Below, piece after piece: positions 5,884 through 20,693 of a DNA stretch of 32,707 bases. This DNA comes from Deltaproteobacteria bacterium. Its GTDB lineage: Bacteria; Myxococcota; XYA12-FULL-58-9. Positions within the stretch are counted from its first letter, which is position 1; the number at the start of each line of letters is the position of its first letter. The translations under genes and the position numbers were made by a program. The notes under the pieces were generated by a model. The model saw nothing but the letters and a program-made list of their open reading frames with translations, ran no database searches and had not been told where the DNA came from. The stretch lies in NCBI GenBank assembly GCA_016218825.1, contig JACRCV010000108.1:1-32707 (forward strand), in the 5' to 3' direction.

Positions 5884-7611
5884 CTAGCGCCGCGCCACCG
5901 CCGCCGCTTGGAAGGGCGGCGGGCGCACCGCCAGGTGCACGTCGATGACCGCGCCGATTCGGAGCGTGCCTGCCTGGTCTCGCCAGTAGAACCGGCCGCG
6001 CTCCAGGGCGCAGTTGCCGCGGTCGTCGCAGCGCGGCTCGACCTCGTAGGCGACCTCGAACCCGACGATCCCCAGGCTCGAGACCGGCCAGAGCTCGTCT
6101 GCGGTCGAGATCCGATCGCCGTCCAGGTCGGCCCAGGCGAGGAGGCGGTCGAAGCCCGGGTCGCGCCGGTCGACGCGGCCGTCCCGGTCCAGGTCGAGCT
6201 CGGCCAGCGCCGCGAAGCCGTTTGCCGCCGGGCCGACGGCGGTCGGGGTCGCCGAGCCGAACAGCTCTTCGCCCGAGGTGATGACGCCGTCGCCGTCGCG
6301 ATCGAGCACCAGCCATGGGGTGGCAGCCGTCGGCCAGTCGGTGCGCACCATCGGCGTCTTGCCGGCGGCGGCGAGGTTGAACGCGGTGACGCCGTCGTCC
6401 GGGGTGTAGACGACCGCCTGGTCCGGGTCGAACGCGAGGACCAGCGGTGTCGTGCACTCGTAGGTCGTGCAATTGGAGGCCTGGTAGCAGCTGAAGGTGT
6501 CGCCGACGCGGCTGACGGTGCCGGAGCAGCGGGCGTCGACCCAATCGCGGTGCGCTCTGTCCCACGCTACCGAATCGACGCCGCGGTAGCACCAGAGGCG
6601 GAGCTCGTTGTAGGTACAGCCGCGGTCGTTGTGCTGCATACAGCTCTCGGCTTCGGCCACGGTGTCGAGGTTGGTGCCGCCGTAGCCGTTACAGTTGCCG
6701 AAGCTGCACGTCGAGGTCGACTTGACGCCGTTGTCGTCGAAACCGTCGCAGTCGTTGTCGAGGCCGTCGCAGACCTCGGCGGGCGTCGGGCCGCAGGTGT
6801 GGCAGGCGTTCAGCAGGCCCTCGTCTACGTAACTGTCGCAGTCGTTGTCGAGGTTGTCACAGACCTCGACTGGGGTGGGCCCGCACTGGAGGCAGGCGTT
6901 CAGCAACCCTTCGTCGATCTCCAGGTCGCAGTCATTGTCCTTGCCGTCGCAGATCTCGGTCGAGGGGTGGCAGCAGGCCGTCAGATCGAGGCCGTCGTCG
7001 GCGGCGCCGTTGCAGTCGTTGTCGTAGCTGTCGCAGACCTCGCGGTCGTCGCACGACGGGCCGTCGACGCCCTGGGTGAGGCAGCCGAACTCCGCCTGCA
7101 GCTGCAGCCGGGTGCTCGCGAGTGGGTAGATGCGGTCGTAGCGCACGCAGATCTGGACGTTTTGCTGCACCCGTCTGCCGATGTCGATCTGGATGCCGTG
7201 CAGCGGCTCGCAGCAGCCGTGGGCGAAGTCCCCGATCTGGGTGTGGTTGACGACCTCGCCGTCCACGGTCACCGCGACCACGTGGGTGTCGCAGCCGGCG
7301 GCGGTGCCGATGATCAGGCGGCCGATCTCCGGGTTGTCGGTGGTGTCGATGCCGTAACAGAAGGTGCTGGCGCAGGGCATGTCGTCGATGTCGTGGCTCG
7401 ACAGCTTCACGGTCGCCGGGCACTCGTCCGGCGTCTCGTCGGTGCACACCGGCTCGCGACAGACGCTGTGGGCCACCGCCGGCACCGGCTCGCTCGGCCG
7501 CTCCACGGGCGCCAACACGTCCGATTGGCACGCGCCGGCCGCGAGTGCCACGAGCAAGAGGCCAAAGCGACTTGCACCCCAGGTGACTCGATCTTCAGCA
7601 ACGCATCGCAT
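5884..7611 (-). CDS. Lipoprotein with MopE-type CDxxDNDCD repeats and Ca-binding-like loops
   Basis: 575 aa. GGGAG precedes the ATG; the lipobox is AAGAC (C28). Residues 50-180 are a Cys-rich domain I do not recognise. Four copies of the putative metal-binding motif EvCDxxDNDCDgxxDeG follow at about 191-208, 219-236, 249-266 and 279-296; the last three are near-tandem 30-residue units. The C-terminal third carries EF-hand-like loops DRDGDGVITSGEE (about 437), DLDRDGRVD (about 473) and DLDGDRISTADE (about 495), a typical Ca-stabilised dockerin/EF pattern. It is a surface or periplasmic lipoprotein, probably folding around Ca ions and disulfides; the biological role is unknown. Proteins with these repeats are common in Myxococcota. 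Confidence 0.85.
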   Translation of the reverse strand: MRCVAEDRVTWGASRFGLLLVALAAGACQSDVLAPVERPSEPVPAVAHSVCREPVCTDETPDECPATVKLSSHDIDDMPCASTFCYGIDTTDNPEIGRLIIGTAAGCDTHVVAVTVDGEVVNHTQIGDFAHGCCEPLHGIQIDIGRRVQQNVQICVRYDRIYPLASTRLQLQAEFGCLTQGVDGPSCDDREVCDSYDNDCNGAADDGLDLTACCHPSTEICDGKDNDCDLEIDEGLLNACLQCGPTPVEVCDNLDNDCDSYVDEGLLNACHTCGPTPAEVCDGLDNDCDGFDDNGVKSTSTCSFGNCNGYGGTNLDTVAEAESCMQHNDRGCTYNELRLWCYRGVDSVAWDRAHRDWVDARCSGTVSRVGDTFSCYQASNCTTYECTTPLVLAFDPDQAVVYTPDDGVTAFNLAAAGKTPMVRTDWPTAATPWLVLDRDGDGVITSGEELFGSATPTAVGPAANGFAALAELDLDRDGRVDRRDPGFDRLLAWADLDGDRISTADELWPVSSLGIVGFEVAYEVEPRCDDRGNCALERGRFYWRDQAGTLRIGAVIDVHLAVRPPPFQAAAVARR

Positions 7612-15069: not shown

Positions 15070-15687
15070 GTGCGGTTGGTCTGCTTTGACTTGGGCGGCG
15101 TGATCATCAAGATCTGCCGCGACCTTCGCGAGGCGGCGGCGGCCGCCGGCGTGATCCTCCCGGAGGCGCTCCCCGAAGCCGCCCTGGTGGCGATGACGAC
15201 CTGGTCGTGGCGGCTGCAGCGCGGCGAGACCGATCCGCAGACGATGGCCGCGGAGGTCGCGCGCGCCGCCGGCGGTTTGCTGACGGCTGCTCAGGTGGAG
15301 GCGATCCAGGCCGCGTGGCTGCTCGAGCCCTACGCCGGGGTCGCGGAGCTCGTCGCGACGCTGGAGGCGCTCGGGGTCGCGACCGCGGTGCTCTCGAACA
15401 CCAGCCCCGATCACTGGGAGGCGTTGCGGGTCTTGCCGGCGGTGCGGCACACGCGGCACCGGTTCTTGTCGTTCGAGCTCCGGGCGATGAAGCCGGAGCC
15501 CGAGATCTACGCCGCGGTCGAGCGGCACGCGGGGCTGTCGGGCGCGGCCATCGGCTTCTTCGACGACACCGAGGCCAACGTGGCGGCGGCGCGGGGCAGG
15601 GGCTGGCGGGCGGCGCAGGTCGACCACGCGCTGCCCCCGGCGCCGCAGATCGAGGCGGCGCTCTGCCGATGGGGTGTCGCGCTGTAG
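15070..15687 (+). CDS. HAD-superfamily (subfamily IA) hydrolase
   Basis: 205 aa, GTG start with AAGGA about 8 bases upstream. Motif I is CFDLGGVI (nucleophile D7); the usual second Asp is replaced by Gly, as in the YihX-like branch where the motif reads DxGxV. Motif II is LSNTS (S109), motif III K141 in MKPEPEIY, motif IV FFDDTEANV (D165-D166). The cap is a small helical insertion near 15-80. It is likely a cytoplasmic phosphatase for a small phosphorylated metabolite (sugar phosphate or mononucleotide). It begins 12 bases after the VWA stop and ends 39 bases before the Sec-thioredoxin gene. Confidence 0.88.
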   Translation: MRLVCFDLGGVIIKICRDLREAAAAAGVILPEALPEAALVAMTTWSWRLQRGETDPQTMAAEVARAAGGLLTAAQVEAIQAAWLLEPYAGVAELVATLEALGVATAVLSNTSPDHWEALRVLPAVRHTRHRFLSFELRAMKPEPEIYAAVERHAGLSGAAIGFFDDTEANVAAARGRGWRAAQVDHALPPAPQIEAALCRWGVAL

Positions 15688-15726: not shown

Positions 15727-16056
15727 ATGAAGGAAGTGACCGACGCCGGGGCCCTGAGGAAGGCCGTGGGGCGACGCCGTGCGGCGGTGCTGTTCCACGC
15801 CCACTGGTGACCGTTTTGTCGCAGCTTCCGGCCGCAGTTTGCGCGCCTCCTCGAAGCTGACGCCAAGCACCTCGCGGTCGAGGCCCTGGTCGACGACGAG
15901 GACAGCCCGCTCTGGGATCTCTACGACGTCAAGGTGGTGCCGACCGTCGTGTTCTTCGCCGGCGGCGAGGTCGTGGCCCGCCTGGAAGGGCGCGCCGGGG
16001 TCGGCATTCTCCCCGAGGAGCTCGAGCGGGCGCTGGGGAAACACACGCCCACCTGA
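15727..16056 (+). CDS. Thioredoxin-like selenoprotein (W-Sec-P-F-C active site, in-frame TGA)
   Basis: 109 aa including one selenocysteine. A standard reading stops at codon 28 (TGA, 15808-15810), leaving a useless 27-mer. Read through, the protein is a complete thioredoxin fold: strand AAVLFHAHW, active site W27-U28-P29-F30-C31, helix RSFRPQFARLL, strand HLAVEALVDDE, helix SPLWDLYDV, cis-Pro P72 in VKVVPTVVFFAGGEVV, terminal helix PEELERAL. Coding signal (G/C third bases) runs unbroken through 81 codons after the TGA to a TGA at 16054. A stem-loop suited to Sec insertion lies just downstream. Homologs of the type WCPFC have Cys here. It is a cytoplasmic thiol-disulfide or peroxide-related reductase; partner unknown. 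The start ATG is fixed by an upstream in-frame TAG at 15715. Confidence 0.82.
15808..15858 (+). promoter_or_regulatory. Sec codon and candidate bacterial SECIS stem-loop
   Basis: UGA at 15808-15810. Lower stem 15823-15828 (AGCTTC) pairs perfectly with 15853-15858 (GAAGCT). Upper stem 15830-15835 (GGCCGC) pairs with 15841-15843 and 15845-15847, with C15844 bulged. The apical loop is AGTTT (15836-15840), with G at its second position. The loop begins 25 bases after the UGA, inside the range known for bacterial SECIS elements (about 16-37), which also need a G among the first two loop bases. Drawn by hand, not folded by software. Confidence 0.7.
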
Positions 16057-16486
16057 CGCCGCCGCCCGAACGAGGCCGCGCGCGCACCGCAGCGGGGGTG
16101 TCCCGAGTCGACGGTGGCGCGTCCGTCGAAGGCGACAAGCTGACGTCCGGCACTTAGCGTCGACCGAGGCACGACCGCGTCGAAGGCGCCCACGGAGACG
16201 AGGGGCACCCCCCGAGGAGCACAGTGCGGCCGACTTGGGCATGGCCGTAACCGCCCGAACAAATAGGGTTCTTTCAGGTTGTTCCCGGTTGGTTTCGCGC
16301 CGAGACAATTCGCGCAACTCTGGAGAGCACAAGTCGAGAATCATCTCGAGCGCTGTCGGACTGATACACAATAGAATGGCGGCTCGTGGTGGGTCCGGCG
16401 GAGCTTAATAGGGATTGGGGTGGCCACTCGCGAGAGTGGCCACCGTCGTTTGTCTTCAACGCGGACCACCGACCGGCGCGCTCGCT
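16057..16486. other. Gene-free region between convergent units
   Basis: No supportable gene. 16057-16255 is GC-rich without a coding frame of clear bias. 16258-16400 is noticeably richer in A and T than its surroundings. It holds a 6-bp hairpin (16334-16339 with 16344-16349, loop ATCA) and a 10-codon ORF (ATG 16377, MAARGGSGGA), for which I see no Shine-Dalgarno. A very stable hairpin follows at 16419-16444. The region could hold a small RNA, but no family is recognisable. Confidence 0.5.
16419..16444. terminator. 11-bp hairpin with GCGA tetraloop, possible bidirectional terminator
   Basis: GGTGGCCACTC (16419-16429) and GAGTGGCCACC (16434-16444) pair perfectly around GCGA, a GNRA loop. It lies 42 bases beyond the stop of the minus-strand operon and faces the plus-strand thioredoxin unit. 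There is only a weak T-rich stretch (GTCGTTTGTCTTC) on the plus side and none on the minus side, so intrinsic termination is uncertain. Confidence 0.5.
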
Positions 16487-17383
16487 CTACAAACGCGCCC
16501 AGGGATCGGCGTAGAAGCTCGCCAACGCCTCCCGCAGCCGGTCGTCGTTTCCCGCTTGCTTGGCAAAGAGAGCGTGCTCCAACGGCAGGAGGCGCGCGTA
16601 CAGCGCGACGCGGTGGCGGAGCGCGTCGTCGGCGGGGGCGTAGCGCTGCATGACGCCGCGCGCGAGGTCGGGGCCGAGCTCGTCCGGAAGCGTCCGCAGA
16701 TCGTGGGCCGGATCTCCCATGAGCGCGTCGCCGAAATCGAGGAGCGCGGTGATCGTCCCACGATCGTCGACGAGCACGTTGTCTCGCGTCAGGTCGCCGT
16801 GGTTCAGCACCGACGGCGGTGTCGCCGCGGCGAGCGCCGCGTCGAGCCTTTGGAGGAGCTCCTCGGCCCGGCGCCGGCGCGGTGGATCGAGCTCGACGAA
16901 CAGCTCGTGCTCCAGTTGCAGGGCGCGCGCCGCGACCACCTGTCGCCAAGGCCGCGAGGCGGGATCGAAGGGCACGTCGGCGAGCTCGGCCGGGGGGATG
17001 CGGTGCAGGCGGTGACAGAGCTCGGCGAGCGCCGCGGCCAGGGCGTCCTGCGCCGCCGGCGTCGACGGCCGCGTGAGCGGGCTGCCGCCGACCTTGGTGC
17101 TGAGAGTGAAGGCGTGCGCGGCCTTTGGGACCCGGGCTCGATGACAGACCACCGTCGGCACCGAGATCGGCGCCAGCGCCGGTGCCAGCCGCGGCAACAG
17201 CGCGCACTCCATGGTGAGAGATCGGCCGATGGCGGCGTCGTCGCCGACCTTCATGATCAAGCCGGTGTCGGTCTCGAAGACCGCCGCGTCCCAGCCGCGC
17301 GCCAACGGGCGGAGGGCGCGGATGCCGAGCTCGGGCGCGGCGGTGTCGAGCAGGCGCAGGGCTTCGGCGGCGCGCACGTTCAC
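16487..17383 (-). CDS. Aminoglycoside phosphotransferase (APH)-type kinase
   Basis: 298 aa from the GTG at 17383, which overlaps the TGA of the subtilase gene (GTGA); a second GTG lies two codons on. The bacterial APH/choline-kinase fold is clear: AVFETDTGLIMKVG with ATP-binding K45, TKVGGSPL hinge, catalytic loop NHGDLTRDN (H195-G-D197, N202) and metal-binding LLDFGDALMGDPAHDL (D216, D219). It transfers phosphate from ATP to a small hydroxylated molecule; the substrate is unknown and a resistance role is not implied. Last gene of a four-gene operon whose members all overlap by 4 bases, so its dose is coupled to the subtilase. Confidence 0.88.
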   Translation of the reverse strand: MNVRAAEALRLLDTAAPELGIRALRPLARGWDAAVFETDTGLIMKVGDDAAIGRSLTMECALLPRLAPALAPISVPTVVCHRARVPKAAHAFTLSTKVGGSPLTRPSTPAAQDALAAALAELCHRLHRIPPAELADVPFDPASRPWRQVVAARALQLEHELFVELDPPRRRRAEELLQRLDAALAAATPPSVLNHGDLTRDNVLVDDRGTITALLDFGDALMGDPAHDLRTLPDELGPDLARGVMQRYAPADDALRHRVALYARLLPLEHALFAKQAGNDDRLREALASFYADPWARL

Positions 17384-19449
17384 CTCGAGGACCGGCGGCG
17401 ACGGGCGGCGACACCACAGAGCCACAGGGCCGCCCCCAGCGCCAGCGCCGGCGGCGGCGCCGCGGCACAGGTCGAGGGCTCGGGGTCGAGGCGGCGGCGG
17501 CGGGCGGCGCAGACCGGGGCCTCGTCCACCGCGCCGTCGCAGTCGTTGTCGAGGCCGTCGCAGCGCGACTCGGTCACTTGATAGACCTCCGGGCGGTCGC
17601 AGCGCCAACGGCCACCGCCACAGACGGCAGCGTGGCCGGCGCACACCCCGGCGCCGCCGCAGGCGTGCGCCGCGACCGTGGCTTCGAGACCCTCTGGATC
17701 GACGTCGTCGACCACCCCATCGCAGTCGTTGTCGAGACCGTCGCAGCGCTCCGGCTCGTCGCAGTCGAGCGCGTCCAGGCAGCTGAGATGGGTGGCGTCG
17801 ACCGCGAGCACGCAGACCTCGCCGTTGCAGCGCGTCCCGTCGCCGCAGGCAGCGCCGGCCCCGCAGGGCGCGAAGCACCAGCTGCCGAAGAAGTCGTCGG
17901 TCGCTCGACAGAGGAGACCGGCGGTGCACTGCGCCGTCGTGGCGCACGGGGCACAGAAGGGGCGCGTGTCCTGGTTGCAGACGAAGCCCTCGTCGACGTT
18001 GCCGTCGCAGTTGTTGTCCCTCCCGTCGCACAGCTCGCGCGGATAGTCGGGGACGCACGGCGCGCACTGCTCGGGGTCGTCGCTGCGGCCGTCGCCGTTG
18101 TCGTCGATGCCGTTGCCGCACAGCTCGAGCCAGGCGGTGAACGAGTCGGTGTAGGCCGCCGCGGCGACGAGCGCGGCGCCGGGATCGACGCGGCCGAACC
18201 CGTACCACCGCGACAGCCCGTTGACGTAGGGCGCGCGCGCGGCGTCGATGGGATGGGCGGACAACAACAAGGCCTCGGTGAGCTGGGCGACGGTGAGGTC
18301 GGGGTAGCGGGCGAGCACCAGGGCGGCGACGCCGCTCACCATCGCCGCGGAGGCGCTGCTGCCGCCGAAGGCGTCGGCGTAGTCGCCGCTCGCCGTGCCC
18401 GCCGCACCGCTGACGTCGGTGCTGACGATCGGCGGCATCGTCGCCGTGCCGCTCGACGGCGCCACCAGCCGTACCGTGGGGCCATAGTCGGAGTAGTAGG
18501 CCAAGTGTCCGTCGGCGGCGACGCTGCCGACCGCGAGCACGCGAGGATCGCTCGCGAAACGATCGTAGGTAGCGAGCTCGCCGCCGTTGCCGGCCGACCA
18601 GACGACGAGCGTACCGCGGCCGCCGCGCCCTTCGGTGACCGCGTAGCGCAGCGCGTCTTGGACCACCTGGGGTGCCTGCCAGGCGAGGACCGGGTGGTAC
18701 GGATCGTAGAAGTTGCCGTCGGGCGGGCCCCAGCTGTTGTTGATCACCGCGGCGCCGTGGTCGGCGGCGAACACCAGGGCGGTGGCGATGGCGCTGCCGG
18801 TGGTGAACAGATCCGGCGGGCCGCCGTTGCCGAGCAGCCGGATCGGCAGCACGCGGCACTCGGGGCAGACGCCGGTGAGGCCCTGGGCGTTGAAGCCCCG
18901 CGCCGCGACGACCCCGGCGACCTGGGTGCCGTGATAGTCGCCGGGACCGTAGCTCGGGTCGGGGTCGGTCGGGCTCTGCGCCACGTCGAGGCCGTCGGCG
19001 GTGAACGTCAGGGCGAGATCCGGGTGGGCGAGGTCGAAGCCGTCGTCGAGCACCGCGACCAGCAGCCGCTCGCCCGCCGCGGTCGTGCCGCGGGAGACGT
19101 CCCAGACCGGCGGCAGATCCATCGCCGCCTCGATTCCCCCGGCGAGCGACCACTGCTCATCGTAGAGCGGGTCGTCAGGGATCGCGCGCCAGCGGATCGG
19201 GATCAACGGATCTTCTTCGGCGTAGCGGACCCTCGGGGCGCGGCGCAGGCGCTCGAGGAGGCGCGGGCGCGGCGCGACGTCGACGACGATCGCGCCCGGC
19301 AACGTCGTGACCAGCGTCAGGTCGAGATCGCGCACCAGCGCGCGGACCAGCGGCGCGACCTGGGCGCCACGGTGGTCGGCGGCGTCGAGGCCGACGACCA
19401 CGCGGATCGGTGCGGCGAGGGCCAAGAGCGCGAGAGCGGCGGCGGTCAT
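17380..19449 (-). CDS. Subtilisin-like serine protease with MopE-type repeats and a MYXO-CTERM-like anchor
   Basis: 689 aa from ATG 19449, which overlaps the rhomboid TGA (ATGA). Order: signal segment (1-13), a possible inhibitor propeptide (15-85), an S8 peptidase domain (about 95-445) with D135 in VAVLDDGFD, H173 in DYHGTQVAGV, oxyanion N238 in INNSW and Ser365 in GGSSASAAMVSG. Then come EF-like NGIDDNGDGRSDD, three CDGxDNxCDGxVD repeats with a Cys-rich linker, and a tail of Cys661, a hydrophobic segment and RRRR at about 683-686. Such Cys-TM-Arg tails are sorting signals in Myxococcota: the protein is held in the inner membrane, cut and moved to the surface. The active site appears intact. 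Coupled to the rhomboid upstream and the kinase downstream. Confidence 0.92.
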   Translation of the reverse strand: MTAAALALLALAAPIRVVVGLDAADHRGAQVAPLVRALVRDLDLTLVTTLPGAIVVDVAPRPRLLERLRRAPRVRYAEEDPLIPIRWRAIPDDPLYDEQWSLAGGIEAAMDLPPVWDVSRGTTAAGERLLVAVLDDGFDLAHPDLALTFTADGLDVAQSPTDPDPSYGPGDYHGTQVAGVVAARGFNAQGLTGVCPECRVLPIRLLGNGGPPDLFTTGSAIATALVFAADHGAAVINNSWGPPDGNFYDPYHPVLAWQAPQVVQDALRYAVTEGRGGRGTLVVWSAGNGGELATYDRFASDPRVLAVGSVAADGHLAYYSDYGPTVRLVAPSSGTATMPPIVSTDVSGAAGTASGDYADAFGGSSASAAMVSGVAALVLARYPDLTVAQLTEALLLSAHPIDAARAPYVNGLSRWYGFGRVDPGAALVAAAAYTDSFTAWLELCGNGIDDNGDGRSDDPEQCAPCVPDYPRELCDGRDNNCDGNVDEGFVCNQDTRPFCAPCATTAQCTAGLLCRATDDFFGSWCFAPCGAGAACGDGTRCNGEVCVLAVDATHLSCLDALDCDEPERCDGLDNDCDGVVDDVDPEGLEATVAAHACGGAGVCAGHAAVCGGGRWRCDRPEVYQVTESRCDGLDNDCDGAVDEAPVCAARRRRLDPEPSTCAAAPPPALALGAALWLCGVAARRRRSSR

Positions 19450-20693
19450 GGGCGGCCGGCCGCGCCCGGCGCTCGACCGGAGTCCGTGGCGATCGTGAGG
19501 CTCGAGAGGATCGTGTCGCGGATCGCGGCGTAGTCGGCCGCGAGCCACGCCGGCGACGTGAAGCTCAACACGTACTCCCAGCCTGCCTCGGTGAGCAGCA
19601 CGAACACCGCGTGGGCACGGTAGTTGTCACTCTCGGCCTCGACGTGCAGGCGGGCGGTGGCGAGGCCGTGAAGCGTCGCGAGCTCGGGGCTGCGGTCGCT
19701 GGTCCGCGCCATCGCGTTGGCGGCCAGCTGGGTGTCGAGCTCTTCGGTAACGAACTGGTCCACGACCGTGGCGAGGGGTGTTGCTCGCGCCAAGCGCTCG
19801 GCGGTGACGCCGAGGGTGACGCCGCCGCCGTTGTCGAACAGGACCGTGTGCCGGCGGGGCTCGCGGCGCTCGAGGGTCTGGCGCCAGCGCTGCGGCACCT
19901 GCAGGCGCAAGCCCTGGATCTGGATCGGCCGGGCGGCGAGCGCCGGGCCGGAGCCGGGCGCGAGGGTCGAGAGCGCCGCGACCAAGAGCGGCACCGTGAG
20001 CAGCGCCGCGATCTTCAGCGGCCGGCGGCGGTCGTCGGGGGCGAGGAGGCGGGCGGGAAAGACCAGGCCCGCGACGAGTCCGGCCGCGACGCCGCCCGCG
20101 TGCCCCCAGACGTCGGCGCCCGGGGTGCGCTGGCTGACGAGGAACGCGAGCGCGGCATAGGGGATGACGCTGCCGAGGAAGTAGCGCCGGTAGCGGCCGG
20201 GCAAGAGCTTGCGGTGCCGGAGGCCGAAGATCGCGAGCGCCGCCCAGACTCCGAAGACCATCCCCGAGGCGCCGCAGCTGGTGGAGGCGCCCAAGAGCGT
20301 CGAGACCAGGGTCGTCGCGAGGCCGCTGCCGACCAGGAGGAGAGCGTAGTCCAGGCGGCGGAAGGCGGCCTCGGCCGGGCCGCCGAGGTTGAAGAGAAAG
20401 AGCAGGTTGACGAACAGGTGCCAGCGCGTGGCGTGCAGCAGGTTGGCGGAGATGAGCCGCCACCACTCGCCGCGCTCGACCATCAAGGCCAGGTTCTTGG
20501 CGCCGAGGCGGGCGAGCTCGTCGGCGGCGCCGGCGCTGTCTCGTTGCCAGCCGAAGTAGGTGGCGACGAAGAGCGCCATCACCGAGATCGTGAGGATCGG
20601 CCAGCGGTCGAAGCGGAACTCGGCGGCGAAGCTCTCGGCGGGGGTCGGCTCCGGGGCGGTCATTGGGGTCGCGGAATCAGCGGCGGTGCTCAT
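19446..20693 (-). CDS. Rhomboid intramembrane serine protease with a C-terminal PsbP/Mog1-like extension
   Basis: 415 aa. Its ATG overlaps the thpR stop (ATGA). Six or so membrane segments at 32-230 include the family marks NLLHATRWHLFVNLLFLF (around 84-101), nucleophile Ser143 in GASGMVFG and His198 in WGHAGGVAAG, so the catalytic dyad is complete. After a seventh hydrophobic stretch (about 228-245) comes a soluble region, 250-405 (GLRLQVPQRW ... VVDQFVTEELDTQL ... YVLSFTSPAW ... TILSSLTI), that reads like a PsbP/Mog1-type alpha-beta fold; this second assignment is tentative and would be an unusual fusion. It cleaves single-pass membrane proteins inside the bilayer. The gene following it with a 4-base overlap encodes a C-terminally membrane-anchored subtilase, a plausible substrate. 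Confidence 0.9.
   Translation of the reverse strand: MSTAADSATPMTAPEPTPAESFAAEFRFDRWPILTISVMALFVATYFGWQRDSAGAADELARLGAKNLALMVERGEWWRLISANLLHATRWHLFVNLLFLFNLGGPAEAAFRRLDYALLLVGSGLATTLVSTLLGASTSCGASGMVFGVWAALAIFGLRHRKLLPGRYRRYFLGSVIPYAALAFLVSQRTPGADVWGHAGGVAAGLVAGLVFPARLLAPDDRRRPLKIAALLTVPLLVAALSTLAPGSGPALAARPIQIQGLRLQVPQRWRQTLERREPRRHTVLFDNGGGVTLGVTAERLARATPLATVVDQFVTEELDTQLAANAMARTSDRSPELATLHGLATARLHVEAESDNYRAHAVFVLLTEAGWEYVLSFTSPAWLAADYAAIRDTILSSLTIATDSGRAPGAAGRP

Follow-up and report, generated by a model that had tools for sequence, protein, structure and literature searches.

A thioredoxin gene with an in-frame UGA at its catalytic cysteine codon: a very probable selenoprotein from a sparse WCPFC subfamily

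Thioredoxins containing selenocysteine (Sec) at their active site (Trx, UxxC, PF00085) are listed among the prokaryotic selenoproteins (PMC13188914), and the UxxC thioredoxin is an established selenoprotein family (PMC13188914, PMC1794560, PMC1088965). Such proteins have been reported in Anaeromyxobacter dehalogenans (two), Geobacter and Treponema denticola (PMC1794560). A full-text literature search for selenoproteins under the name Myxococcota returned no paper. The genomic signature of Sec decoding is the joint presence of selB and selC (PMC1273633). In the bacterial SECIS model, the hairpin has a loop of 3-9 nt with a G in its first two positions, lies 16-37 nt from the UGA and carries an upper stem of 4-16 bp with a folding energy at or below -7.5 (PMC13188914).

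The window considered here is the whole stretch of DNA analysed (32,707 nt). Positions 15727-16056 on the + strand very probably constitute a genuine selenoprotein gene, encoding a 109-residue thioredoxin in which the N-terminal active-site Cys is replaced by Sec. An earlier note had read it as a Sec thioredoxin and called Sec-containing thioredoxin-like proteins a known class, in agreement with the established UxxC family (PMC13188914, PMC1794560). In common with published Sec thioredoxins, the product has a thioredoxin domain, a UxxC motif beginning with Sec and a SECIS-like hairpin straight after the UGA. It differs in belonging to a divergent WCPFC subfamily, the comparison being with their descriptions and not their sequences. 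Its U-P-F-C motif contrasts with the usual C-G-P-C of canonical thioredoxins. The canonical TrxA of the same genome (G000:C84:8296-8598) belongs to the same fold family and has the CxxC spacing and the cis-Pro; it is a Cys form of about 31% identity with no internal stop.

The reading frame starts at an ATG (15727) and ends at a natural TGA stop (16054-16056). Its sole in-frame interruption is the TGA at 15808-15810 (+ strand), codon 28, which corresponds to U28 in W27-U28-P29-F30-C31; no frameshift and no other stop occurs within the 109 codons. The read-through protein reads MKEVTDAGALRKAVGRRRAAVLFHAHW-U-PFCRSFRPQF.... The coding frame with G/C third-base bias that the earlier note had seen past the TGA is borne out by the GC contents by codon position, 0.74/0.52/0.89 on the 5' side and 0.79/0.42/0.89 on the 3' side, with identical GC3 values. 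This coding-type composition is lost downstream of the gene's stop (0.63/0.66/0.70). Of the three + frames, only the thioredoxin frame has a positive codon score both 5' and 3' of the TGA, and it also ranks top over all six frames; one minus frame is weakly positive 3' of the TGA (0.13 versus 0.47). As the standard code breaks the frame at 15808, the gene would be missed or cut in two by standard annotation, as had been anticipated.

By sequence comparison, the gene is identified as a thioredoxin. The Pfam Thioredoxin domain (PF00085) matches residues 17-90 above the gathering score (7.4e-10) and spans both sides of the TGA. An AlphaFold2 model built from a shallow alignment (pLDDT 83) predicts a Trx fold, and its best structural matches are solved thioredoxins (TM about 0.7-0.8). 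The best NCBIfam match, the canonical TrxA equivalog TIGR01068, reaches 39.9 bits, below its cut-off of 96.8. The sequence thus places the protein in a divergent WCPFC subfamily without an NCBIfam equivalog at cut-off. A cytosolic role is likely, since no signal peptide is apparent by eye in the sequence. Other searches at the locus gave little: an Rfam scan returned nothing meaningful, and a search of a genome contig collection with the protein recovered just two ordinary thioredoxins (36% and 28%). Viral contigs contained no relative, and plasmids yielded one distant thioredoxin.

Homolog searches covered 146 and then 195 genomes of the same phylum. Three orthologs were found with near-full coverage, at 50% (G001, same genus), 48% (G192) and 45% (G016) identity. 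They resemble the window protein end to end, including the DDExxPLW motif and the VPT cis-Pro segment, and share its start (MKRV versus MKEV, i.e. MK.V). The difference lies at the Sec position: all three have WCPFC where the window reads W-TGA-PFC, and the AGUUU hairpin described below is not visible in their sequences. Their codon at this site is TGT at locus L023 and TGC at loci L024 and L054. In the same-genus ortholog, TGT lies within an otherwise identical 11-base stretch (TGTCCGTTTTG versus TGACCGTTTTG). This alignment upholds the proposal that the TGA occupies the place of the first active-site Cys. Instead of ending before the TGA, an outcome that the earlier note had raised against the gene, the homologs run through the site. 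The resolving C31 and cis-Pro P72, also claimed there, are both present and were invariant among the orthologs first aligned. The four members form one clade on long branches, separate from other thioredoxins (support 95/89). The subfamily is sparse (four members in 195 phylum genomes), and across these genomes the window's own genome is alone among the four members in having a TGA at the Sec site. A TGA-bearing homolog in a further organism serves as a supporting filter for Sec thioredoxins and is no part of their definition.

The genome from which the window comes (G000; 6.54 Mb, 96.5% complete, a draft of 121 contigs) encodes the machinery for Sec decoding. The genes selA and selB are adjacent on one contig (C115), selD occurs in the same genome, and a tRNA-Sec with anticodon TCA (UCA) scores 73 bits, well over the cut-off of 47. 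The absence of selB and selC, which the earlier note had named as a reason to abandon the reading, is therefore not the case. The selD gene is itself a selenoprotein gene (L018:1483-2541, contig C120), with its TGA at L018:1531 in SHCAGUASKIG (GUAxK). A peroxiredoxin gene (L072:1501-1872; C55:16182-16553) has an in-frame TGA in FTPGU, and the hairpin after it has a loop of six bases that includes a G. As the Sec position of Sec-peroxiredoxins is PxxxTxxU (PMC13188914), its sequence marks this gene as probably a Sec-peroxiredoxin. With the thioredoxin, at least three genes of this genome have a TGA at a known Sec position. FdhA is not supported as a further selenoprotein, the formate dehydrogenase search of this genome giving partial matches only, none with a TGA.

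Sec-related features were also seen in other genomes. In the complete 5.0-Mb genome G037, a probable Anaeromyxobacter, three genes for formate dehydrogenase contain a TGA. This equals the number reported for A. dehalogenans (PMC1794560) and is one sign that the phylum is probably Myxococcota. The same genome has a thioredoxin-domain match containing one TGA (G037:C1:4642729-4642995). In G016, a tRNA-Sec scores above cut-off, selA is unmatched and the thioredoxin ortholog is the Cys form, possibly reflecting an incomplete assembly or decaying Sec decoding.

Directly 3' of the UGA, a SECIS-like hairpin occupies 15811-15859 (+ strand). It comprises a 7-bp lower stem, a bulged upper stem (GGCCGC/GCGCGCC) and an apical AGUUU at 15836-15840. 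The hairpin fits the published model, with AGUUU 25 nt after the UGA and an upper stem of 6-7 bp with one bulge; folding energies are -9.6 kcal/mol for the hairpin and -18.1 kcal/mol for an extended fold. In the minimum-energy fold, an A-U pair closes the apex and leaves a GUU loop. The earlier note had placed the start of the stem-loop 25 bases after the UGA, which holds for the AGUUU loop and not for the base of the stem; the G that it saw at the second loop position, here followed by U, and the SECIS geometry agree with the model. The apical AGUUU (N1 = A, then G, U, N, and N2 = U) resembles the apical AGUCU of the genome's own selD, located 32 nt after the selD UGA.

Chance controls limit the weight of this hairpin. 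Its energy is unexceptional on shuffling (z -1.7, 12 of 200 shuffles equally good). In this GC-rich DNA, the loose SECIS model is satisfied after 368 of the 624 other TGAs in the window, and 53 of the 624 (about 9%) are followed by the strict apical motif (N1-G[G/U]-N-N2, at least 4 bp, 16-37 nt). The AGUNU form follows none of these 624 TGAs, in a post hoc comparison chosen after seeing selD. On synonymous resampling of the downstream codons, the strict motif arises in 3.5% of cases, and the motif with equal energy in 1.4%. On the strength of the loose and strict counts, the fold by itself was dropped as proof. Given these controls, the hairpin alone is only moderate, supporting evidence, the model test being weakly selective in this window. 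Most weight is carried by the alignment of Cys with TGA within a Sec-decoding genome.

Since the TGA occurs in one genome only, a nonsense mutation or a sequencing error has to be weighed, and together they retain a small residual probability. That an ordinary WCPFC thioredoxin was killed by a nonsense mutation at its catalytic Cys codon is very unlikely, even though TGA is one base away from TGC and TGT, the same-genus ortholog has TGT and the canonical Cys thioredoxin on C84 could make the gene dispensable. Against such a pseudogene, the frame is otherwise undamaged, with codon bias intact past the TGA; a SECIS-like hairpin follows the TGA, and the complete Sec machinery is encoded in the genome. 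Moreover, given one base change, only one in 24 of the possible single-step nonsense changes (one in five of those yielding TGA) hits the catalytic codon. A sequencing or assembly error turning TGC or TGT into TGA, conceivable in a draft of 121 contigs, must have landed exactly on the Sec residue, in a Sec-decoding genome and ahead of a SECIS-like hairpin, and is just as improbable. Sec insertion is much likelier than either. Two separate short genes, or a protein started downstream without the catalytic residue, can practically be dismissed: the standard code does split the frame at 15808, but the orthologs are continuous from the same MK.V start, and with a downstream start the protein would lack the WxPFC motif as well as the strand and helix at its N terminus.

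For Sec insertion, redox activity and substrates, we infer the following course. SelB carrying Sec-tRNA(Sec) would bind the hairpin just 3' of the UGA, and Sec would be inserted at codon 28. By established thioredoxin chemistry, the protein would act as a dithiol-type reductant, in which the selenolate of U28 would be the nucleophile attacking a disulfide. The mixed selenide-sulfide would be resolved by C31, P72 would serve as the cis-Pro, and a reductase would regenerate the thioredoxin.

The gene adjoins a HAD-like hydrolase gene upstream (15070-15687, + strand; PF00702, 3.2e-13), an adjacency recorded correctly in the earlier note. No HAD hydrolase lies beside the same-genus ortholog, whose neighbours appear by eye to be alpha/beta-hydrolase-like, sigma-factor-like and ExbB/TolQ-like frames. 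As the neighbourhood is not conserved, the HAD gene says little on function; a functional link was rejected, and the hydrolase is probably not tied to the Sec-thioredoxin. Between the thioredoxin gene and a convergent APH-like gene lies a hairpin with a perfect 11-bp stem and the loop GCGA (16419-16444; z -3.4), a terminator-like or palindromic element. Elsewhere in the window, two proteins encoded on the - strand (17380-19548 and 5884-7611) have MopE-type Cu-binding motifs, one of them being a subtilase.

The biology of a Sec-containing thioredoxin fits the known pattern. The novelty is that a Sec form occurs in a WCPFC subfamily that is small, of sparse distribution and otherwise Cys here. 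We tentatively consider a Cys-to-Sec switch within a single genus, somewhat short of an even chance, in which the SECIS arose inside the coding sequence of a subfamily that is Cys elsewhere, and a loop-position residue changed to suit the RNA. This residue is Gln in the window protein and Thr in two of the three orthologs. Having a Sec and a Cys ortholog in the same genus is useful for asking why Sec replaces Cys and, if the switch is true, G000 and G001 would form a natural matched pair for what is gained by Sec over Cys.
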